A stretch of 64,000 nt of DNA. Origin: Hyphomonadaceae bacterium. GTDB taxonomy: Bacteria; Pseudomonadota; Alphaproteobacteria; Caulobacterales; Aquidulcibacteraceae. Under the pieces are notes generated by a model. That model did no database searches. It had not been told where the DNA came from and saw only the letters and a list, made by a program, of their open reading frames with translations. Below are positions 52,249-63,052 of the stretch, in pieces (position 1 is the stretch's first letter; the number at the start of each line of letters is the position of its first letter). A program made the translations under genes and the position numbers. The stretch is taken from positions 62,001 to 126,000 of the forward strand of contig JALHQO010000011.1 in the NCBI GenBank assembly GCA_022841905.1. Direction: 5' to 3'.

Positions 52249-53049
52249 ATGGCTGACGTGCAAAAATCCATCTTCATCACCGGCGCCGGTTCCGGCATTG
52301 GACGCGCCACGGCGCAACTGTTCGCCGAGCGCGGCTGGTTTGTCGGCCTCTCCGACATCAACCCGCAGGGCCTTGAAGAAACGGCGGCGCTGTTGCCGTC
52401 GGGTCAGCGCATTTCGATGATCCTCGACACGCGCGATCGCTCGGCATGGACGCGCGCGCTTGAGTCGTTCGGTCAAGCGACTGGGCGACGCATGGATGTG
52501 CTGTTCAATAATGCCGGCATTGGCAAAGGCGGCTGGATCGACGAGATGGCGCCAGACGACATCGATCTGGTGCTCGATGTGAATCTGAAGGGCGTCATCA
52601 ATGGCTGCATTGAAGCGCTACCGCTGCTGCGCGAAACGCCAGGTGCGCGCATCGTCAACGTGGCGTCAGTCGCCGGCGTGTTCGGCGCACCGAAGCTCGC
52701 CGTCTATTGCGCGACGAAGTTCGGTGTGCGCGGACTGACTGAAGCGTTGGACGTAGAGTATTCGCGCTACGGCGTGCGCGTCGTCAGCTTGATGCCATGG
52801 TTCGTGGACACCGCGATCCTCGATGCGCAATCCGACGTCGGCTCGAACCGCCGCCTGCGCGATCAGTTGACCGACAATAAAACGCCGATCTATCCGGTGC
52901 GCATGGCCGCCGAGCGTGCGTGGGACGCAGCGCACGGCAAGGACGTCCACTACATGGTCGGCAAAGCAGCTGAGCGCGCGCGGTTCGCGGCGCGCTTCTT
53001 CCCGAACAGAATGCGCGAGCAGATCAAGAAGACGATGGTCGACGACTGA
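52249..53049 (+). CDS. Short-chain dehydrogenase/reductase
   Basis: 266 aa. NAD(P)-dependent oxidoreductase of the classical SDR type: TGAGSGIG at 11-18, NNAG near 87, catalytic Ser in VASVAGVFGAP, and Tyr153-X3-Lys157 (YCATK). C-terminal 40 residues are basic (AERARFAARFFPNRMREQIKK). Starts 30 nt after the GlxA-type gene and could be coexpressed. Substrate unknown. Confidence 0.88.
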   Translation: MADVQKSIFITGAGSGIGRATAQLFAERGWFVGLSDINPQGLEETAALLPSGQRISMILDTRDRSAWTRALESFGQATGRRMDVLFNNAGIGKGGWIDEMAPDDIDLVLDVNLKGVINGCIEALPLLRETPGARIVNVASVAGVFGAPKLAVYCATKFGVRGLTEALDVEYSRYGVRVVSLMPWFVDTAILDAQSDVGSNRRLRDQLTDNKTPIYPVRMAAERAWDAAHGKDVHYMVGKAAERARFAARFFPNRMREQIKKTMVDD

Positions 53050-53059
53050 AGCGCGGATG

Positions 53060-53131
53060 GACCGCGGACCTTCAGGTCCGCGCGGCGCAGTTCTACGGTC
53101 TAGAAATGCGGGCCTGAAGGCCCGCGCTCCC
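53060..53131. repeat. REPIN-like doublet of two inverted hairpins
   Basis: Hairpin 1: GCGGACC-TTCA-GGTCCGC (53064-53081). Hairpin 2: GCGGGCC-TGAA-GGCCCGC (53108-53125). The loops are reverse complements and the second unit is an inverted copy of the first, 26 nt apart, as in REP doublets (REPINs). No RAYT transposase in the window. Confidence 0.8.
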
Positions 53132-53132
53132 C

Positions 53133-54071
53133 TTAGGTCGCGACTTCTTCGCCTGTCGCTGCGGGGATTTCGCTTTCGACTTCCGGGGTTGCAACGATTT
53201 CGCCTTCGACGGCGGCGTCGGTGGCTTCCGGGATCAGCTCATCCACTGGCGCACGACGCGCGGGCATGGCGCCACGGCGGCGGGCCAGCGCCTCTTGATA
53301 GTAGGCGCGCTCCGAGCGGTTCGGGAAACGGTAGAACTGGTGGACGCCGATTTGCGTCGTCGGCACCAGGCCCGAGTTCCACACCGGGTTCACGGCGTTG
53401 GTGTGATAGTGCGTGGCGCCCTGCGTCAGCGGACGGTTGTAGCCCAGCATGACGGCGGTCGCGATGCGCTGCGAGCGCTCCCAGGCGCGGCCGCGCGGAC
53501 GCTGGCCGAGCGAGCCGTCGCAGGTGAAGGTGAACTGGCAGCCGGTCGACCGGTGCGAGCCTTGATAGACCACGCCGCAGATCGAGTTCGGATAAGCCGG
53601 CGAGCGGACGCGGTTCATGATCACTTCAGCGACCGCGATCTGGCCCTGCTGGGTCTCGCCGCGGGCTTCGTAATAGATCGCCTGGCTGAGGCAGTCGTGC
53701 TGGCGGGCGTCGATCTGCGGCTCGGTCGGGGCCGACGGCTCGACCGGCGCACTGGGGCCGCGGAGGACAGCGTCGAGCATCAGGGCGCGGGCGTCGGCGC
53801 TATCGAATACGGGGGCGGAGCCGCGGGCGCGTAAACCATCAGCGCCGCGCGACGCGACCAGTTGAAGGCGTGCGTTCGGCTCAGCGCTGGCGAGCACGTT
53901 CTGCTCGAACTGCGCTTGGAAAGCGGTCGAGGTAGCAGCCCATTCAGCGCCGTCGCGTTGCTCAGCGGCGCGGTGCGAAATCACGGGCATCGCAACCGCG
54001 GCGGCGGCGAGGCACATGATAGTCGCTGCGCCCTGGCGAACGGCCAGAGGGTTCCGATCGATCTCAACCAT
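53133..54071 (-). CDS. SleB-like cell-wall hydrolase
   Basis: 312 aa from ATG 54071. Residues 11-30 are a membrane or signal helix (GAATIMCLAAAAVAMPV). The Hydrolase_2/SleB domain covers about residues 145-260: LSQAIYYEARGETQQGQIAVAEVIMNRV (catalytic Glu in YEARGE), CGVVYQG, CQFTFTCDGS, and ATHYHTNAVNP. A putative peptidoglycan amidase/lytic enzyme. The frame continues far upstream (to 54827), but the region above 54071 is AT-richer and holds a CtrA site; ATG 54133 and 54284 are alternatives. Confidence 0.82.
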   Translation of the reverse strand: MVEIDRNPLAVRQGAATIMCLAAAAVAMPVISHRAAEQRDGAEWAATSTAFQAQFEQNVLASAEPNARLQLVASRGADGLRARGSAPVFDSADARALMLDAVLRGPSAPVEPSAPTEPQIDARQHDCLSQAIYYEARGETQQGQIAVAEVIMNRVRSPAYPNSICGVVYQGSHRSTGCQFTFTCDGSLGQRPRGRAWERSQRIATAVMLGYNRPLTQGATHYHTNAVNPVWNSGLVPTTQIGVHQFYRFPNRSERAYYQEALARRRGAMPARRAPVDELIPEATDAAVEGEIVATPEVESEIPAATGEEVAT

Positions 54072-54133
54072 GACTTGGGTCCGAATCTCGTACGCAAGAT
54101 TAGTCAGTCGATGCCAGAACAACGTGAAATGCA

Positions 54134-54148
54134 TTAAGCCCCGCTTAA
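54134..54148 (-). promoter_or_regulatory. CtrA-type binding site (TTAA-N7-TTAA)
   Basis: A perfect 15-bp TTAA-N7-TTAA, matching the CtrA consensus of Caulobacter-like bacteria. It lies 63-77 nt upstream of the chosen start of the cell-wall hydrolase, placed for promoter control, and so also argues against starts further upstream. CtrA control of cell-wall enzymes is well known in the group; for this gene it is inference. Confidence 0.6.
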
Positions 54149-54747
54149 GACCGTGCAGATTTGGGACAGTTGAGCGCCAAATATTCCGCAGCAGCTGAAA
54201 TCGTTTCGGCTGGTCAATACCCTGACTTGAGCCTGGGGCGGGATACAGGACCGGCGTCCGGGGGGCGATTGACTTTTTGTTCATAGTCTCGACTTCACGG
54301 TCCGTAACCTGAGTTCTTCCAGCCAGCGCGGCGCCTCCGACACGCTGAGAAAGGCCAAAGCCTCCAAAGCCTTGCGAGACCCGGGCCAGTTCACCAATCA
54401 GGCGAGTTAGGGGGCGGCGACCTGACGCGGTAGCCGCAGGCGGGCGCCGTAACGTCAGTTCGGGGTTTTGAGGCTGCGCGGTAACCAGTTTCCGCCGCAC
54501 CCGGGCGTCGATCAGCCGGTTGAGGCGGGCGCGCAAGCGTGCGCGGCGCGCGCTTCGAGCGGCGGGGTCAGTGTTCTCTGCGAAGGCCAAACAGGCGCCC
54601 CATCTCGCGGCCGGGCTCCGTTCGGTACCGGCCGTGATCACCCTCCCCGTCGGCCACTCATGGGCGTGTTCGGGGCGAACGGACGAGGCGGTAAGACTCT
54701 CGCACGCGCCGGGGTTCCGGCAGGCGGCTTCTTTTGTGTAGTTCCGT
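54149..54747. other. Gap without a convincing gene
   Basis: About 600 nt between the hydrolase promoter and ppdK. Frames are open on both strands because of high GC, but none has a ribosome binding site or a protein-like composition. I found no clear tRNA, RNase P, tmRNA or SRP RNA consensus. The part 54149-54300 is AT-richer and probably the 5' leader and promoter region of the hydrolase. Confidence 0.5.
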
Positions 54748-57417
54748 TTACCGTTGTGTCTTGGCCAACGCTGCCTGCGCCGCCGCCAGACGCGCGATGG
54801 GCACGCGGAAGGGCGAGCACGAGACATAGTCGAGCCCGACGCTCTCGCAGAAGTTCACCGAGTCCGGATCGCCGCCGTGCTCGCCACAGATGCCGAGCTT
54901 CAGACCGGGCTTTGCGCCGCGCCCGCGATCGCTGGCGAGATGGATCAGTTCTCCGACGCCTTCGGGATCGATGGTCACGAACGGGTCGCGCTCCAGCATG
55001 CCCTTATCGACGTAAACGCCGAGGAATTTGCCAGCGTCGTCGCGCGACAGGCCCATCGTGGTTTGAGTGAGATCGTTGGTGCCGAAGGAGAAGAAGTCGG
55101 CGGCCTCGGCGATTTTGCCGGCCTGTAACGCCGCACGTGGCAGTTCGATCATGGTGCCGACCAAATACTGGATGGTGCGGCCACGCTTGGCGAACACTTC
55201 AGCGGCGATCGCATCGACGCGCGCGCGCAGAACTTCGAGTTCCTTCTTGGCGATCACGAACGGGATCATGATTTCCGGGATCGGCGCCTCACCCTGCTCG
55301 GCCACGTCGCACGCGGCTTCGAACACGGCGCGCGTCTGCATGTCGTAGATCTCAGGATAGACGATCGCGAGCCGGCAGCCGCGGAAGCCCAGCATCGGAT
55401 TGCTCTCAGCCAACTCTTTCGAGCGCGCGAGCAAGGCCTGCGCATCGAGGCCTGTCGCTTTGGCCACATCTTCGCAATCGGCTTCCGTGTGCGGCAAGAA
55501 TTCGTGCAACGGCGGATCGAGGAAACGGATGGTGACGGGCCGCGCGCCCATCGCCTTGAAGATGCCGACGAAATCGGCGCGCTGGTGCGGGAAAAGTTTA
55601 TCCAGCGCCGCGACGCGCGCGGGCTGCTTTTCTGCCAAGATCATCTCGCGCACGGCGGCGATGCGTTCGGCGTCGAAGAACATGTGTTCGGTGCGGCAAA
55701 GGCCGATGCCCTCGGCGCCGTACTTCACGGCGGTGGCGGCATCCGCTGGTGTTTCGGCATTGGCGCGCACTTTCATGCGGCGGGCGGCGTCGGCCCATTG
55801 CATCAGCGTGCCGAAATCGCCGGTGAGCTCGGGCTGCACCATGTCGGCGGCGCCAAGCAACACTTCGCCAGCCGAGCCATCGACCGTGACGATCTCGCCC
55901 TTCTTAATCACGCGGCCGCCGGCGCGGAATTCGCCGTTCTTCATGTCGATGCGGATATCGCCGGCGCCAGAGACGCAAGGCCGCCCCATGCCGCGCGCGA
56001 CCACCGCCGCGTGACTGGTCATGCCGCCGCGCGCCGTGACAATTGCTTTCGAGGCGTGCATGCCGTGAATGTCTTCCGGGCTCGTCTCTTCGCGCACGAG
56101 GATGACATCGACCTTATCGACAGCCAGGCGCTGCGCCTCATCGCTATCGAACACGACGACGCCAACGGCCGCGCCCGGCGAAGCCGGCAAGCCTTTGCAG
56201 ATGATGTCGCGCTTGTAGCCTTCGGAGATAGTGGGGTGCAGCAATTGATCGAGTGCGGCGGCGTCGACGCGCATCACCGCTTCGTTCTGCGTGATGAGTT
56301 TCTCGCTCGCCATATCGACGGCGATCTTGAGTGCGGCCTTGGCGGTGCGTTTGCCGTTGCGGGTTTGCAGCATGTAAAGCTTGCCGCGCTCGACGGTAAA
56401 CTCGATGTCCTGCATGTCGCGATAGTGCGACTCCAGCTTTTGATAGACAGCCGTCAGCTCCGCGAACACTTGCGGCATCGCCTCTTCAAGCGACTCGCCG
56501 GGCTCCTTCATCGCCACACGGGCGGCTTTCGTCAGCGCCTTCGGCGTGCGGATGCCGGCGACGACGTCCTCGCCTTGCGCGTTGATCAGAAACTCGCCGT
56601 AGAACTTCTTCTCGCCAGTTGAGGGATCGCGCGTGAAGGCGACGCCGGTTGCCGAGGTGTCGCCCATATTGCCGAACACCATGGCCTGCACGTTGACAGC
56701 CGTGCCCCAGCTTTCGGGGATGTTGTTGTGCTTGCGGTAGAAGATCGCGCGATCGTTCATCCAGCTTGCGAACACAGCGCCGATCGCGCCCCAGAGCTGA
56801 TCCTTCGGATCGGCGGGAAACGGTTTGCCGAGTTCGCGCTCAACGGCGCGCTTGTATTCGGCGACGACGTGGCGCCAGTCGTCGGCCGTGAGTTCGACGT
56901 CGGACTTGTACTCGTTCGTATCCTTGTGCGTGCCGAGGATTTCCTCAAACACGCCGTGCTCGAGTTCGAGCACGACATCGGAATACATTTGGATGAAGCG
57001 GCGATAGCTATCGAACGCAAAGCGCGCATCGCCGGAGAGCTTAGCCAGGCCTTCGACGGTGTCGTCGTTCAGCCCCAAATTGAGCACCGTATCCATCATG
57101 CCCGGCATCGACGCACGCGAACCGGAGCGCACGGAGACGAGCAAAGGATTTGCGGGATCGCCGAAGCGTTTGCCGGTTTTGCCTTCGAGCGCGGCGAGCG
57201 CCGCATCGACTTGGGCTGCGAGTTCGGCCGGGTAGTTACGGTTGTTATCGTAGAACTCGGTGCACACTTCCGTTGTGATGGTGAAGCCCGGCGGCACCGG
57301 CAGGTCGAGCTTCGACATCTCGGCCAAGTTCGCGCCCTTGCCGCCGAGCAGCGTCTTCATCGACGCATCCCCCGCACTCTCGCCGCCACCGAAGCCGTAG
57401 ACATATTGCTTTGTCAT
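54748..57417 (-). CDS. ppdK: Pyruvate, phosphate dikinase
   Basis: 889 aa. Interconverts pyruvate, ATP and Pi with PEP, AMP and PPi. Domains in order: ATP-grasp (N-terminal, GGKGANLAEM), the phospho-His swivelling domain with His469 in GGMTSHAAVVARGMGRPCVSGA, and the PEP/pyruvate TIM barrel with GICGEHGGDP (catalytic Cys) and SCSPFRVPIARLAAAQA. Full length. Overlaps glyS by 4 nt, last in glyQ-DUF2314-glyS-ppdK. Confidence 0.96.
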   Translation of the reverse strand: MTKQYVYGFGGGESAGDASMKTLLGGKGANLAEMSKLDLPVPPGFTITTEVCTEFYDNNRNYPAELAAQVDAALAALEGKTGKRFGDPANPLLVSVRSGSRASMPGMMDTVLNLGLNDDTVEGLAKLSGDARFAFDSYRRFIQMYSDVVLELEHGVFEEILGTHKDTNEYKSDVELTADDWRHVVAEYKRAVERELGKPFPADPKDQLWGAIGAVFASWMNDRAIFYRKHNNIPESWGTAVNVQAMVFGNMGDTSATGVAFTRDPSTGEKKFYGEFLINAQGEDVVAGIRTPKALTKAARVAMKEPGESLEEAMPQVFAELTAVYQKLESHYRDMQDIEFTVERGKLYMLQTRNGKRTAKAALKIAVDMASEKLITQNEAVMRVDAAALDQLLHPTISEGYKRDIICKGLPASPGAAVGVVVFDSDEAQRLAVDKVDVILVREETSPEDIHGMHASKAIVTARGGMTSHAAVVARGMGRPCVSGAGDIRIDMKNGEFRAGGRVIKKGEIVTVDGSAGEVLLGAADMVQPELTGDFGTLMQWADAARRMKVRANAETPADAATAVKYGAEGIGLCRTEHMFFDAERIAAVREMILAEKQPARVAALDKLFPHQRADFVGIFKAMGARPVTIRFLDPPLHEFLPHTEADCEDVAKATGLDAQALLARSKELAESNPMLGFRGCRLAIVYPEIYDMQTRAVFEAACDVAEQGEAPIPEIMIPFVIAKKELEVLRARVDAIAAEVFAKRGRTIQYLVGTMIELPRAALQAGKIAEAADFFSFGTNDLTQTTMGLSRDDAGKFLGVYVDKGMLERDPFVTIDPEGVGELIHLASDRGRGAKPGLKLGICGEHGGDPDSVNFCESVGLDYVSCSPFRVPIARLAAAQAALAKTQR

Positions 57418-59645
57418 GATCCTTCGATCTTCGAGAAATCGGCCACCGCAGACAAGGCGTCGCGTAGCCGCGTCAGCAACAGCAGCCGATTTTTGCGTAA
57501 AGCCGCGTCATCGGCGTTGACCAGCACCTTTTCGAAGAAGGCGTCCACCGGCGCGCGCAGGGTGGAGAGCGCTTTCATGGCGGCGGCGAAGTCTTCGCGC
57601 TCGACCGCGGCGCGCGCGGCGGGGAGCGCTTTGGAGAGCGCGTCGGCGAGCGCCTTCTCGGCGGGTTCGGCGAGCTTGGAGGCGTCGACGTCGCCCGTGG
57701 CTTCGTCCGCACTCCACTTCCCCTTCTTTTCTTCGGCCGCAAGGATGTTGGCCGCGCGCTTGTAGCCCGCCAGCAAGTTCGCGCCGTCCTCGGTTTTCAG
57801 GAAGGCGTCGAGCGCTTCGACGCGCGCGACGATGCGGACGAGATCGTCATCGCCCAACGCAAAGACGGCATCGACGAGATCGTGGCGCTTGCCTTGATCG
57901 CGGAGCTGGACTTTGAGGCGATCGGCTAGGAAGGCGAGGAGGTCGCGCCCCTTACTGAGGATTTCCCGCTCAGTCTGACGCTCGAACTTGCCGTCAGAAG
58001 GACGTGCATCGGTTCGCGTCAACTCCCGAACGTAGTCTTGGAAGGCGGCTGTACCTGCTGCGCTGCGGAGCGCATCCGCCATCTTCTTCTGCAAAGCCCC
58101 CGATTGCACTTGTGCCGAAATGCTCACGCCCTGCCCAACTGCAATCGCGGTCAGCAACGCAAGTCGCAGTCGAATGGAATTCGCCAAGACAATGCGAACG
58201 AAGCCAAGGGCGGACCTGCGCAATGCGTAAGGGTCGGCTGATCCTGTCGGCTTCTCGTCGATGGCCCAAAAGCAGCCGAGCGAATCCAACTTGTCCGCGA
58301 GAGCCAAAACAACGGAGATCGGCTCGCTAGGAACTCTGTCGCTTGGCCCAACCGGACGATAGTGGTCCTCAATCGCGGCCGCGACGCCCGCGTCTTCACC
58401 GTGGATAACAGCTAACTGCCGGCCAATCTGCCCCTGCAACTCCGGGAATTCACCGACGAGTTCCGTCACAAGATCGCACTTGCTTAGGTCTACAGCGCGC
58501 CTCGTCGCATTCCCGTCCGCATGAACAAAGTTTCGTAGATCTCCGGTTAGCTCTTTAACGCGCTCGACCTTGTCCCAAACGCTGCCGAGCTTTTGGTGAA
58601 AGACGATCTTCTTGAGCTTGTCGCGGCGCTCGTCGGTGTAGAGCGGCGTTTTCTTGTCTGTGTCCCAGAAGAAGCGCGCGTCGTTGAGGCGCGCTGAGAG
58701 CACGCGGGCGTTGCCGGCGGCGATGGCTTTGCCGCCGTCTTTCGCTTCGACATTGGCCACCGTCACGAAATGCGGCGCGAGCTTTTGCGTTTTCGGATCG
58801 CGCACGGCGAAATACTTTTGGTGCGTGCGCATGGAGAGGCGGATCACTTCGCCCGGCAGATCGAGAAAGCCAGCGTCCATGTCGCCCAGAAGCGTCACCG
58901 GCCATTCAACCAGGCCGCACACCTCTTCGAGCAGGCCGATATCCTCGACCAGCTCCAGCCCCTTGGCGGCGCAGAGCGCCTTGGCTTGTTCGAGGATGAT
59001 GCGTTTGCGCTCTTCGCGCTCGATCAGCACTTTCGCGCCGCGCAGACGCGAGACGTGATCGGCGGCGCTGCGCACTTCAATCGGCTCCGGCGCATGGAAG
59101 CGATGCCCCCACGTGACCCGCGCCGAGCCCACGCCTTCGACGGCGATCGCAACGCCCTCGCCGTCGAACACGCAGCAAATATTATGCAGCGGGCGCACCC
59201 ATTGCAGATCGCTGACGCCCGAGCGCATCGATTTCGGCCACGGAAACGCGCGCACGATCTCTGGCACGATTTCCTGAACGATCTCCGCCGTCGCGCGGCC
59301 GGCGCGTTCGATTTTGGCGACGTAGAACGCGCCCTTCTTGTCCTCGACGATCTGCGCTTGATCGATCGAAGCAAGCCCCGCGCTTTTCAAAAAGCCCTGC
59401 ACGGCCTGATCGGGCGCGCCGACGCGCGGGCCCTTCTTCTCTTCGTTCACGTCCGCCGCTTTCGCCGGCAAATCCTCGATCACGAGTCCCAAACGGCGCG
59501 GAGATGAAAACGTGTTGATGCGCTCGGGCTCTAGGCCGGCGGCTTTGAGCTTTTCGCCCATCAGTTTCGCAAAATCCTCCTCCGCGCGCTTTTGCATACG
59601 CGCGGGGATTTCCTCGCTGAACAATTCCAACAGCAGTTGCGGCAT
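57414..59645 (-). CDS. glyS: Glycyl-tRNA synthetase beta subunit
   Basis: 743 aa. Forms the alpha2beta2 GlyRS with GlyQ; the beta subunit binds tRNA. Seen: N-terminal LLLELFSEEIPARMQKRAEEDF, RMQ..., GHRFH, EVCGLVEWPVTLLGDMDAGFLDLP, ARFFWDTDKK, GEFPELQGQIGR, and a C-terminal anticodon-binding-like helical domain. A segment of about 600 nt (57960-58560) is lower in GC than both flanks. Starts in the stop of DUF2314 (TGATG). Confidence 0.95.
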   Translation of the reverse strand: MPQLLLELFSEEIPARMQKRAEEDFAKLMGEKLKAAGLEPERINTFSSPRRLGLVIEDLPAKAADVNEEKKGPRVGAPDQAVQGFLKSAGLASIDQAQIVEDKKGAFYVAKIERAGRATAEIVQEIVPEIVRAFPWPKSMRSGVSDLQWVRPLHNICCVFDGEGVAIAVEGVGSARVTWGHRFHAPEPIEVRSAADHVSRLRGAKVLIEREERKRIILEQAKALCAAKGLELVEDIGLLEEVCGLVEWPVTLLGDMDAGFLDLPGEVIRLSMRTHQKYFAVRDPKTQKLAPHFVTVANVEAKDGGKAIAAGNARVLSARLNDARFFWDTDKKTPLYTDERRDKLKKIVFHQKLGSVWDKVERVKELTGDLRNFVHADGNATRRAVDLSKCDLVTELVGEFPELQGQIGRQLAVIHGEDAGVAAAIEDHYRPVGPSDRVPSEPISVVLALADKLDSLGCFWAIDEKPTGSADPYALRRSALGFVRIVLANSIRLRLALLTAIAVGQGVSISAQVQSGALQKKMADALRSAAGTAAFQDYVRELTRTDARPSDGKFERQTEREILSKGRDLLAFLADRLKVQLRDQGKRHDLVDAVFALGDDDLVRIVARVEALDAFLKTEDGANLLAGYKRAANILAAEEKKGKWSADEATGDVDASKLAEPAEKALADALSKALPAARAAVEREDFAAAMKALSTLRAPVDAFFEKVLVNADDAALRKNRLLLLTRLRDALSAVADFSKIEGS

Positions 59646-60280
59646 CAGGTGGTCCAGTCGAGCGGCAACGGCGTGCGCGTCAGGCTCTCACGCAGTGCGG
59701 CGGCGTCGGCTTCGTTCATGTGCGGCAGCATCACGCGCGTGGTGTAATTGCCGTACATACCCTCGCTGCCGTCGATCGACCAATCGCTGACCAGCGCATG
59801 ATCGATCTCGATCGGCGAGCCGCGGCGCATGCCGGGCAGATTGCCGGGCTCGTTGGCGAGCGTGCCGAACATGCGATCGCCATCGACGCGCAGATTGTCG
59901 ACCCAGATGTGCTCTTCGCCGCCATCCGGCGTCGCGAGCGCGACCTTCACCATGTAGTCGGTTTGGCGCAGCGGCGGCGCGATGTCGAACGCCGCGAGAA
60001 ATTGCGGATAAGTGCGGCGCGCCTCGGCGATTGCTGCGGCCATGGCGGCGTCGTCTTCATCGAAGAAGACAATGCCGTCGCTGCCCGGCGTCGGCGGCGC
60101 AACGCCTGAACTGGGGCTGCTCGATGTGCTGCCGGCAAAGCCCTGGTTTTCATTGACGGGCGCGCCGGAATTGTTGGCCTGCGTATTGGCGGACGCGGCG
60201 GCGTTTCGGTCGCCCTTCTGCGCGAACGCGGGCGACGCCGTCAACGCGCACGCAGCGAGCGCGATCACAACACGTTTCAT
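59645..60280 (-). CDS. DUF2314 (YegJ-like) secreted protein
   Basis: 211 aa from ATG 60280. Signal peptide residues 1-21 (ends SPAFAQ). Residues 25-65 are Ser/Asn/Gly-rich. The DUF2314 domain follows (about 70-205): [63 protein letters not shown]. Periplasmic by signal. It overlaps glyQ by 4 nt and glyS by 1 nt, an odd place for an exported protein. Confidence 0.82.
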
Positions 60281-61161
60281 TGCGCGGTCTCCAGCTTTTC
60301 CCAAGCGCTTGCGCATCCCTTGGCCAAGTCGCGGACGCGGGCGATGAAGCTCTGGCGTTCAGTCGGCGACACGACACCGCGCGCGTCAAGCAGATTGAAC
60401 AAATGGCTGGCCTTCAAAGTGTAGTCGAACGCAGGCAACACGGCGCCTTCACCGAGCAGCCGCTTGGCGGTGGCTTCGGCGTCGTTAAACCAGCGCAGAT
60501 TCTGTTCGGGATCACTGAGCTCGAAATTGAAGCGCGATTGCTGGCGTTCGTTTTCGAGGAAGATGTCGCCATAGGTAAGCGGCGTGGCCGAGTCCGGGTC
60601 GTTGAACGGCAGATCGTAGACGCGATCGACGCCGAACACGTACATCGCCAAGCGCTCAAGCCCGTAGGTGAGTTCGCCGCTGACCGGGCGCACATCGAGG
60701 CCGCCGACTTGTTGGAAGTAAGTGTACTGGCTCACCTCCATGCCGTCGCACCACACTTCCCACCCGAGGCCCCAGGCGCCCACGGTCGGGTTTTCCCAAT
60801 CGTCTTCGACGAAGCGGATGTCGTGCAGCAGCGGATCAATGCCAATGCGGACAAGTGAATTGAGATAGAGCTGCTGCAAGTCCGGCGGGTTCGGCTTCAG
60901 GATCACCTGAAACTGATAATAGTGCTGCAGCCGGTTCGGGTTCTCGCCGTAGCGGCCATCCTTCGGGCGGCGAGAGGGCTGCACATAGGCGGCGCGCCAG
61001 TGCTTCGGACCCAGCGCGCGCAGCGTGGTCGCCGGATGCAGCGTGCCCGCGCCGACTTGCTCGTCATATGGCTGAAGGATCGCGCAGCCCTGCTCGGCCC
61101 AGTAGGTCTGGAGCGTCAAGATCACGTCCTGGAAACAGCGCGGGGCTTTGTCGGGGGCCAT
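60277..61161 (-). CDS. glyQ: Glycyl-tRNA synthetase alpha subunit
   Basis: 294 aa. Catalytic subunit that activates glycine and charges tRNA-Gly. Class-II synthetase markers: [70 protein letters not shown] and [18 protein letters not shown]. Full length. First gene of a four-gene overlapping operon. Confidence 0.97.
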
Positions 61162-61202
61162 GGGGGACGGGTAATGGCGCCCGCCCCCCCTTTCAAGCGG
61201 TC

Positions 61203-62093
61203 CTAGCGGAGGAAGTCCGCCACCGCGGCCTGGAACGCGGCCGGTTGGTCGAACATGATGAAGTGGTAGGCGCCGTCGATGCGGACGAAGGTCGCGTTGG
61301 CAGCGGGGCCAAAGCCGCCGCGATAGAGGCCATCGACCATGGCTTCCGGGCCCATGGCCGGGTCGTAGGCGTAGACGACCGTGATCGGGGTTTGCACGTT
61401 GGCGACTTCGCCGCGCAAGTCGGTGATCATCACTTCATACATGGCTTGCGCGAAGGCGCGGCGATCGGAGGCGACACTCCACTGCACCACTTCGGCGCGG
61501 CGCTCGGCGGTTTTGACCAGGCGGCCAACGCCCATGTTCTGCTGCGCGGCAAAGCTCGCGTCGTCGAGGGCGATCAACTGATCGCGCATGGCGCGCGCTT
61601 GCGGCTCAACGGTGGCCGCCGTCGCTTGCGGACCGAACATGGCGCTGAAGAAGGGCAGCGAGTCCACGATCATTAGCCGGCTGACGCGATCAGGATGGCG
61701 GCGCGCCAGTATGAGGCCGCTAAGCCCGCCCATGGAATGGCCGATCACCGCGGCCTGCCCCGGCGTGTAGCTCTCAATGTATTGAGCCAGTCCTTCGACC
61801 AAGGGATCGATCATCGCCTCGGTCGACGCCGGCGCGGCTTCACCGGCAAAGCCCGCGACCTGCACCATATGCACGCGGTGCGTCTCAGCCAACGCATCGG
61901 CCTGCGCCTGCCAAACATCGCGGCTTGAGCCGAGGCCGGGGATGAAGATGACGTCCGCGCCATTTCCGGCGACTTCGACGCTGAAGCGCGACGGCGCGAA
62001 CGGCTGGGCGTTGGCCCCGTTGAGCGGCAATGCCGCGGCCAGCGCCAATGCGCCGAGTGCGGAAACTAGAAAACGTCGTGAAAAGCTAAGCAC
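61203..62093 (-). CDS. Secreted alpha/beta hydrolase
   Basis: 296 aa. GTG 62093 is chosen because GGAGAG lies 5 nt upstream; ATG 62117 is the alternative. Signal peptide ends GANAQ. Triad: Ser120 in GHSMGG, Asp in YAYDPAMG and His in DGAYHFIM, with oxyanion FIPGLGSS. Periplasmic ester- or lactone-type hydrolase; the substrate is unknown. Confidence 0.85.
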
Positions 62094-62162
62094 AGTTTCT
62101 CTCCATCGGCGTTTCATGCGCCGGCTTGCATTGCGTTCTTAAGGAGCACCGTATCGTCGGCG

Positions 62163-62369
62163 CTAGACGTCGTACCAAACCGTAATGACGTAGTGCTCTT
62201 GGCTTTTGTCGGTGAGCGCGGTGCGGGTCGCCGCAGTCGCTGTGTTGACGTGCTTCACCGCGCCCTGCGGCAGCGACGCCAGAAAATCGTTCACTTCAGC
62301 CTGCATTTTGCCCGCTTCTGCGCGCCAATCTTGCGTGAACAACCGCATCTGCATCGTCGTCTCCATCAT
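62163..62369 (-). CDS. Small hypothetical protein (68 aa)
   Basis: 68 aa (ATG doublet at 62369/62366). Soluble. Two short segments (MRLFTQDWRAEAGKMQAEVNDFL, EHYVITVWYDV) give a mixed helix-strand fold. Last gene, 12 nt downstream of the membrane protein at 62382, so possibly in the Xre operon. No family recognised. Confidence 0.55.
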   Translation of the reverse strand: MMETTMQMRLFTQDWRAEAGKMQAEVNDFLASLPQGAVKHVNTATAATRTALTDKSQEHYVITVWYDV

Positions 62370-62381
62370 GTTTTACGCAAG

Positions 62382-62828
62382 TCAGCGATTGCGCATCCAG
62401 AGCACAGCCCACCAGACCAGATAACCCAAAGTCGCCGGAAGGATTGCGAGCACGAAGCCGGCAGTGAAACTCGTTGTCGCGACATCGGCGATGTCGTCGC
62501 CAAGCGCCGCGCTGCCCGACGACATCATAGTAGGCAGCAGCGCCAGAAAGATGAGCGACGACACCATCAGCCCAACCGATCCGCCCCAAAACCAAGCTTG
62601 GTAATGGGCTTTGAGTTGCGCCTCATCGAGCGTGCGGCCCCAACCGAACGTGCTCGCCGTCATCGCGACGACGATTGCGGCGCTGAGCCAGAACAGATTT
62701 GCATCCACGAAGACGTCAGCGAACACCGATGCGAGGTAAAGCAGCGCAAAGACGCAAGTCAGCAGCGTAAAGAGATTCTTCCTGCGCTCTCTGAGCGAAC
62801 GGCGTGGCGTGTCAGCAAGTTGAGTCAT
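62382..62828 (-). CDS. Hypothetical membrane protein of the Xre-linked cluster
   Basis: 148 aa from ATG 62828 with AGGAG upstream. Four hydrophobic segments (about 19-38, 42-62, 76-99, 116-142). Basic, short N-terminus. Similar to DUF2178-type small membrane proteins that often accompany a short Xre regulator. Directly downstream (11 nt) of the Xre gene. Confidence 0.6.
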   Translation of the reverse strand: MTQLADTPRRSLRERRKNLFTLLTCVFALLYLASVFADVFVDANLFWLSAAIVVAMTASTFGWGRTLDEAQLKAHYQAWFWGGSVGLMVSSLIFLALLPTMMSSGSAALGDDIADVATTSFTAGFVLAILPATLGYLVWWAVLWMRNR

Positions 62829-62839
62829 AATTCCGGCTC

Positions 62840-63052
62840 CTATTCGGCAGCCTGGGCCACATCGTCGGCGCTGAAGATTTGTTCGATCGACAGACCGAAC
62901 ACGGTTGCGATTTTGAAGGCGAGCGGCAGCGAAGGATCGTACTTGCCGGTCTCGATTGCGTTCACGCTTTGACGTGAGACGTCGAGCTTCTCGGCGAGAT
63001 CCGCCTGGCTCCAGTTGCGCTCGGCGCGCAGGACCTTGAGACGATTTCTCAT
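62840..63052 (-). CDS. Xre-family transcriptional regulator
   Basis: 70 aa. A lone HTH_3 domain: MRNRLKVLRAERNWSQADLAEKLDVSRQSVNAIETGKYDPSLPLAFKIATVF-like, with the recognition helix near residues 25-35. Only the DNA-binding domain, as in short Xre proteins paired with membrane proteins. It overlaps the upstream membrane-protein gene by 4 nt (ATGA). Likely autoregulates the cluster. Confidence 0.85.
   Translation of the reverse strand: MRNRLKVLRAERNWSQADLAEKLDVSRQSVNAIETGKYDPSLPLAFKIATVFGLSIEQIFSADDVAQAAE

Follow-up and report, generated by a model that had tools for sequence, protein, structure and literature searches.

Why should a gene for a probably exported protein lie between the genes for the two subunits of one cytosolic enzyme? 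The question is raised by a stretch of 64,000 nucleotides (the window) from a Hyphomonadaceae bacterium, contig JALHQO010000011.1, in which glyQ, a gene of the DUF2314 family, glyS and ppdK follow one another in this order on the minus strand, with every joint overlapping. An earlier note on this DNA had given the overlaps as 4, 1 and 4 nt, which the sequence bears out, and profiles confirm all four gene families. We think it somewhat probable (about 0.6) that the DUF2314 gene is an old passenger, repeatedly lost or re-acquired, of a slot between glyQ and glyS whose content varies, and that it encodes a YegJ-type protein, exported to the envelope side, that does not act on glycyl-tRNA synthetase (GlyRS). 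Below, G and L numbers designate genomes and loci, G000 being the window genome and G001 its sister species; f1, f2, f3 and f5 are family codes.

The sister species shares all four genes and their joints, and its DUF2314 gene is 91-100% identical in nucleotide sequence per 100 bases. A protein search found the DUF2314 protein in eight of 61 relatives, the window genome included. When 398 genomes of the order were scanned with PF10077, 50 were positive and 40 had a full-length domain; the other ten matched only in part, in proteins of a different type whose fetched surroundings gave no match to glyQ, glyS or ppdK. Among the 40, the fetched stretch places the full-length gene between glyQ and glyS in 32 genomes, which span three families (f1, f2 and f3). 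Five more have one flank in view (glyQ in G526, G538 and G657, glyS in G601 and G672), the other side falling past the end of the stretch or contig, and three have neither: G472, where the domain is fused to what by eye are ankyrin-like repeats, G654, whose contig stops 172 nt past the match, and G418, where no glyQ or glyS was found next to the gene. An uncultured Caulobacteraceae metagenome-assembled genome (L212) also has the order glyQ-DUF2314-glyS. The earlier note had named a recent insertion confined to this strain as what would overturn its observation; the same slot gene in the sister species and in three families rules out both such an insertion and an assembly artefact.

Elsewhere the gene keeps other company. 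A search for related loci returned 30, five of which have DUF2314 beside glyQ and glyS (L212, G001, G004, G010 and G019); the other 25 have neither synthetase gene beside it within at most 6 kb on each side. In a phylum sample, 28 of 398 genomes were PF10077-positive, three of them from the order, and 18 of the phylum loci (L213-L230, some with multi-domain DUF2314 proteins; the seven weakest, L231-L237, were left out) have no glyQ or glyS within about 1.5 kb on each side. The same holds for L011 over the same distance. Plasmids gave seven records with weak DUF2314 matches, none spanning 80% of the query.

On conservation of the gene order, a point raised by the earlier note, the answer is divided. 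Apart from the window genome, the sister species, three further genus members and two other families have the slot gene, but among the 26 genus genomes with glyQ and glyS on one contig only five have a DUF2314 match and 21 have none, which argues against a partnership with GlyRS. The slot itself is variable. The gap between glyQ and glyS exceeds 300 nt in 14 of 26 genus genomes and in 13 of 25 other relatives (27 of 51 in total). For the rest of the class, 230 genomes were searched and 135 outside the order had both genes among the matches listed, two of them on separate contigs or opposite strands; of the 133 pairs that could be scored, three have a gap above 300 nt and 120 a gap of 120 nt or less. 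The 26 genus slots hold DUF2314 (five, one of them with a CDGSH gene), DUF559 (seven), CDGSH alone (one) or an open reading frame (ORF) without a Pfam match (one); one, in G014, is frame-broken and unclassed, and 11 are empty or nearly so. In nine of these 11, glyQ and glyS are joined through a 1-nt overlap. The DUF2314 gene overlaps its neighbors on both sides in G000, G001 and G010 and on the glyQ side only in G004 and G019; the slot neighbor on the glyQ side in G010 is the CDGSH gene. Slots of other families also contain CDGSH, GST and cupin genes, a caspase-WD40 protein, lipoprotein-like ORFs without Pfam matches and multi-gene blocks, and G057 has two DUF2314 genes flanking a CDGSH gene.

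Some of this cargo has features of its own. The DUF559 ORFs (L076, L077, L078, L081, L083, L085 and L086; seven of seven by Pfam) are nuclease-like, and some of these slots have similar peptide stretches at both ends (SSSMEE...SSIEEE), which suggests the flanking repeats of a small mobile cassette. The caspase-domain and WD40 protein of G037 and G041 (L093 and L094) has a signal-like start and comes after DUF2314 and CDGSH in the slot. In family f5 (L105, L106 and L107) several ORFs occupy the slot as a block, one of them CDGSH-like and one resembling, by eye, a monofunctional transglycosylase. In G014 (L035) in-frame stops divide glyS into pieces, and pheS and pheT are also broken, suggesting sequencing errors in that genome.

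As a control we used pheS and pheT, the genes of another two-subunit synthetase, in the same genomes of the order. They lie more than 300 nt apart in 13 of 25 scorable genus genomes and in 19 of 26 others (32 of 51). All 32 long gaps were fetched, and 31 contain an ORF of at least 80 codons on the operon strand, a few of which are perhaps spurious frames. By eye, several of the ORFs resemble lipoproteins (G004 and G029) or membrane proteins. The DUF2314 profile matched none of the 31, in which respect these gaps differ from the glyQ-glyS slot. A split peculiar to glyQ and glyS is ruled out, since pheS-pheT is interrupted at least as often in the same genomes. Because those genes are also split by ORFs of membrane type, split subunit genes appear ordinary in this order and no special explanation involving GlyRS is needed; the earlier note's surprise at a periplasmic protein between two synthetase subunits does not survive the comparison. 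What remains odd is how rarely a full-length DUF2314 gene of the order lies outside the glyQ-glyS slot. The pheS-pheT gaps (L242-L273) also contain, by eye, a recurrent ORF type in several genomes of different families, with a transmembrane (TM) helix near the N-terminus and the motif AWDQ..VMR.QQH.

The window protein has 211 residues and PF10077 as its sole Pfam match (68.6 bits against a gathering cut-off of 22, residues 77-193), and this profile matches a single place in the entire source genome. Ahead of the domain are a signal-peptide-like start and a linker of low model confidence. The protein has no C-terminal DUF2185 and so is not of the PA2504 family; by eye and hydropathy it consists of one DUF2314 domain preceded by a signal peptide or lipobox, an arrangement that we group as YegJ-type, a grouping of our own. 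The earlier note had called the protein secreted, and the signal-peptide-like N-terminus is there by eye and by hydropathy; export itself we infer, and consider probable. A regular-expression and hydropathy test found an export signal, mostly with a lipobox, in 38 of 40 proteins of the order, taken from 38 genomes (G654 and the 37 in which one flank or both are in view; G057 and G526 contribute two proteins each). The lipobox call for G000, G001, G010 and G019 is probably wrong, the early cysteine lying within a type I signal peptide; either reading means export. A hydrophobic segment stands at the start of all 31 rows of a broader alignment (A3), whose start codons were picked by hand among the possible ones and which extends to Bacteroidota, Armatimonadota, Planctomycetota and Verrucomicrobiota; its invariant residues include K112, E123, W126, D166 and T180. 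Compared with G001, the gene has dN 0.011, dS 0.20 and dN/dS 0.05, indicating purifying selection.

AlphaFold2 gave 131 residues a pLDDT of at least 90, with a whole-chain mean of 80.2 and a confident domain of helices and strands. Structure matches were weak: the best Foldseek E value was 0.033, with none at or below 0.001, and the best VIA match was to 4qqg (Z 4.2, 66 residues, 2.6 A), and the leading matches included Tudor- and chromo-type domains. Searches for a solved structure by sequence found none with the single protein, and the profile gave one match at chance level (3rgc, E 0.32). The Tudor- and chromo-type matches agree with, without proving, the Tudor-like model published for the DUF2314 domain of Pseudomonas aeruginosa PA2504 (PMC8466066), and the protein may be a binding module rather than an enzyme.

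Protein partners have been published for two members of the family, PA2504 and YegJ. PA2504 is a cytoplasmic two-domain DUF2314-DUF2185 protein, unlike the window protein; it has RppH as a partner, and cross-linking joined it to S4, TufA (EF-Tu) and GacA (PMC8466066). Closer in layout is Escherichia coli YegJ, a single DUF2314-type protein 28% identical to ours over 136 residues; in the copy examined its N-terminus, MKKILLMLSLLFFTTAGFS, resembles a signal peptide. The corresponding ORF of 153 residues (L238:1375-1836) is identical to an annotated yegJ, and 1904 of 5426 genomes have a match. Unlike our gene, yegJ lies outside a synthetase operon and in K strains is flanked by pphC and yegI (PMC13232886). 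According to the same source, YegJ is an RNase E partner, isolated as the fragment 16-153 and binding RNase E also as the purified protein; it is classed as cytosolic, and its over-production causes membrane leakage and damage with Cpx and Psp induction. Fragment 16-153 is without most of the signal-peptide-like stretch, and an exported YegJ would fit the membrane effect of over-production. Searches of the literature on DUF2314, YegJ, glyQ/glyS/ppdK and GlyRS with an intervening gene did not turn up the present arrangement in the titles or abstract openings listed.

How the gene came to the slot was approached with a tree of 84 DUF2314 domains, 40 labeled as slot (including the five one-flank genomes, G654 and L212) and 44 as non-slot; many of its rows are long-branched. 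The reading that DUF2314 has arrived repeatedly and independently in a preferred insertion slot, so that shared position is not common descent, concerns origin and is compatible with the passenger explanation. We hold it tentatively, at rather less than even odds. The labels need four changes on the free tree, and unrelated genes also occupy the slot. The tree pairs G004 with G010 (100/97), in conflict with the glyQ+glyS tree, which hints at transfer. On the other side, the five sequences from the genus cluster together with support (100/94), and holding all slot sequences together is not rejected (p-AU 0.216), so that a single clade is neither refuted nor demonstrated. Nor are genomes that share cargo clearly more alike near the slot than farther off, which leaves exchange of cassettes by recombination in the glyQ and glyS flanks unsupported. 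Within the genus, presence of DUF2314 takes four changes on the glyQ+glyS tree against a shuffled mean of 4.7 (162 of 500 shuffles as low), a clustering no better than that of shuffled labels; all slot states together take 12 changes against 14.3 (15 of 200 as low).

The passenger explanation draws on the same slot in 32 of 40 genomes, the patchy presence within the genus, the overlapping joints, the export signals, the dN/dS of 0.05, a third-position GC content (GC3) of 0.82 similar to that of neighboring genes, and the commonness of split synthetase genes. Under it, ribosomes ending glyQ would re-initiate at the ATGA overlap on the DUF2314 gene and then, at TGATG, on glyS. Re-initiation would keep the two synthetase subunits coupled and would give the passenger steady, growth-linked expression, and the product, a small beta-rich binding module after a signal peptide or lipoprotein signal, would work on the envelope side without acting on GlyRS. 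Several observations weigh against this explanation. Within the order the tie to one slot is strong, whereas a pure passenger could sit anywhere, as it does outside the order; 45 non-slot DUF2314 loci have no glyQ or glyS nearby, and 44 of them come from outside the order sample, with G418 the one inside. The slot proteins of G401 and G420 have no export signal in our test, and the putative envelope role is read from that signal. The binding of YegJ to RNase E and of PA2504 to S4, EF-Tu, GacA and RppH may leave room for a cytosolic link (PMC13232886, PMC8466066).

Other functions can be weighed against the same evidence. DUF2314 is listed as Imm34 in a survey of polymorphic toxins, where it is fused to other immunity domains and to TM helices and occurs in polyimmunity loci (PMC3482391). 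The window protein, which belongs to the same Pfam family, could then shield the envelope from a neighbor's toxin, with an always-on operon giving constant protection and slot turnover following changes in toxin exposure. Its fast divergence (44-55% identity to the proteins of G004, G010 and G019, while glyQ is 93-96% identical) and patchy presence would fit an arms race. Against this, the Imm34 table row gives no partner toxin (PMC3482391), selection between the two closest species is purifying, and no toxin or immunity gene is among the five neighbors scanned with profiles (glyQ, glyS, ppdK, a cell wall hydrolase and an alpha/beta hydrolase), so that the locus does not qualify as a toxin/immunity locus; we regard the immunity role as doubtful. 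A link to GlyRS or translation, in which the module would have a translation or RNA-decay factor as its binding partner and have its dose tied to that of GlyRS through the operon, seems very unlikely to us. The partners reported for PA2504 and YegJ in the papers cited above and a neighborhood kept across three families speak for it, but the tested proteins nearly all carry an export signal, most genus genomes with glyQ and glyS do without DUF2314, and pheS-pheT is interrupted as often by other genes. We give still less credence to the idea that membrane targeting itself is what is conserved, any ORF with a signal or TM segment in glyQ-glyS or pheS-pheT drawing the shared mRNA and coupled ribosomes to the translocon, where the synthetase would be assembled or its subunit ratio set. 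Divergent DUF2314 proteins, the lipoprotein-like ORFs of G045, G049 and G055, the exported caspase-WD40 proteins of G037 and G041 and the membrane-type pheS-pheT ORFs could serve as alternative carriers; empty slots and cargo such as DUF559, GST or cupin argue against the idea.

Table 1. Features of the glyQ-DUF2314-glyS-ppdK locus, in window coordinates
Feature	Position	Strand	Evidence
glyQ, glycyl-tRNA synthetase alpha subunit	60277..61161	-	PF02091 E 3.4e-138; TIGR00388 and NF006827 over cut-off
glyQ/DUF2314 joint, ATGA, 4 nt (DUF2314 start and glyQ stop)	60277..60280	-	sequence
DUF2314 (YegJ-like) gene, 211 codons and stop	59645..60280	-	PF10077 E 7.7e-19; dN, dS against sister species
Signal-peptide-like residues 1-20, cleavage after AFA by eye	60221..60280	-	sequence; hydropathy peak 2.93
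DUF2314 domain, residues 77-193	59702..60052	-	PF10077; AlphaFold2 block means pLDDT 87-98, residues 71-210
DUF2314/glyS joint, TGATG, 1 nt (DUF2314 stop and glyS start)	59645..59645	-	sequence
glyS, glycyl-tRNA synthetase beta subunit	57414..59645	-	PF02092 E 2.5e-177; TIGR00211
Foreign-looking segment in glyS	57903..58601	-	identity to sister; identity to genus; GC3
glyS/ppdK joint, ATGA, 4 nt (ppdK start and glyS stop)	57414..57417	-	sequence
ppdK, pyruvate phosphate dikinase	54748..57417	-	TIGR01828 1384.6 bits against cut-off 843

The synthetase is of the bacterial two-subunit type (TIGR00388, 438 bits against 361; TIGR00211, 737 bits against 300). We take the ATG at 60280 as the DUF2314 start; the earlier start given by the ORF finder, at 60316, falls within glyQ. 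Simple consensus scans of 54000-62300 found no promoter-like site, with 1.2 expected by chance, and no terminator-like site on the minus strand, all 12 found being on the plus strand; together these results weakly support a single transcript, on which the four genes would be co-transcribed. An Rfam scan of 53000-63000 gave no match reaching the gathering score.

The coupling of ppdK to glyS, described as notable in the earlier note, proved to be a common neighborhood tightened in this species pair. We compared 41 loci, the window and 40 fetched ones mostly chosen for an occupied slot; glyQ and glyS occur together in 35, of which 33 allowed a judgment on ppdK. In 30 of the 33, ppdK comes after glyS at a distance of no more than about 0.7 kb; in G052 the distance is 2.5 kb, and in G040 and G058 the gene was not found in the 3.3-3.7 kb beyond glyS. 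What is special is the overlap, found among the compared loci only in G000 and G001.

Within glyS itself, a segment covering about residues 349-581 is only 45-69% identical to the sister sequence per 100 bases, as opposed to 87-100% elsewhere in the gene. Its first 370-445 bases are about 66-69% identical to the best genus glyS matches listed, where the sister's counterpart reaches 77-81%; the later part did not align in the genus comparison and is variable among genus members. The reading frame is open, and GC3 is 0.65 against 0.79-0.81 around it. In sequence and composition the segment looks as if DNA foreign to the genus had replaced the original. A search of 148 genomes of the order, a sample without the sister species, revealed no donor; the best non-self matches were 55% identical at full length and 72% over 79 residues for a partial match.

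The locus indicates that a housekeeping operon can keep an open slot between the genes of obligate subunits. In three families one and the same probably exported type of protein fills it, and in this species the start and stop of its gene overlap both subunit genes. The slot is a natural test of how far operon neighbors imply shared function. The largely consistent export signal of the DUF2314/YegJ proteins also bears on how the published interactions of YegJ and PA2504 are to be read.

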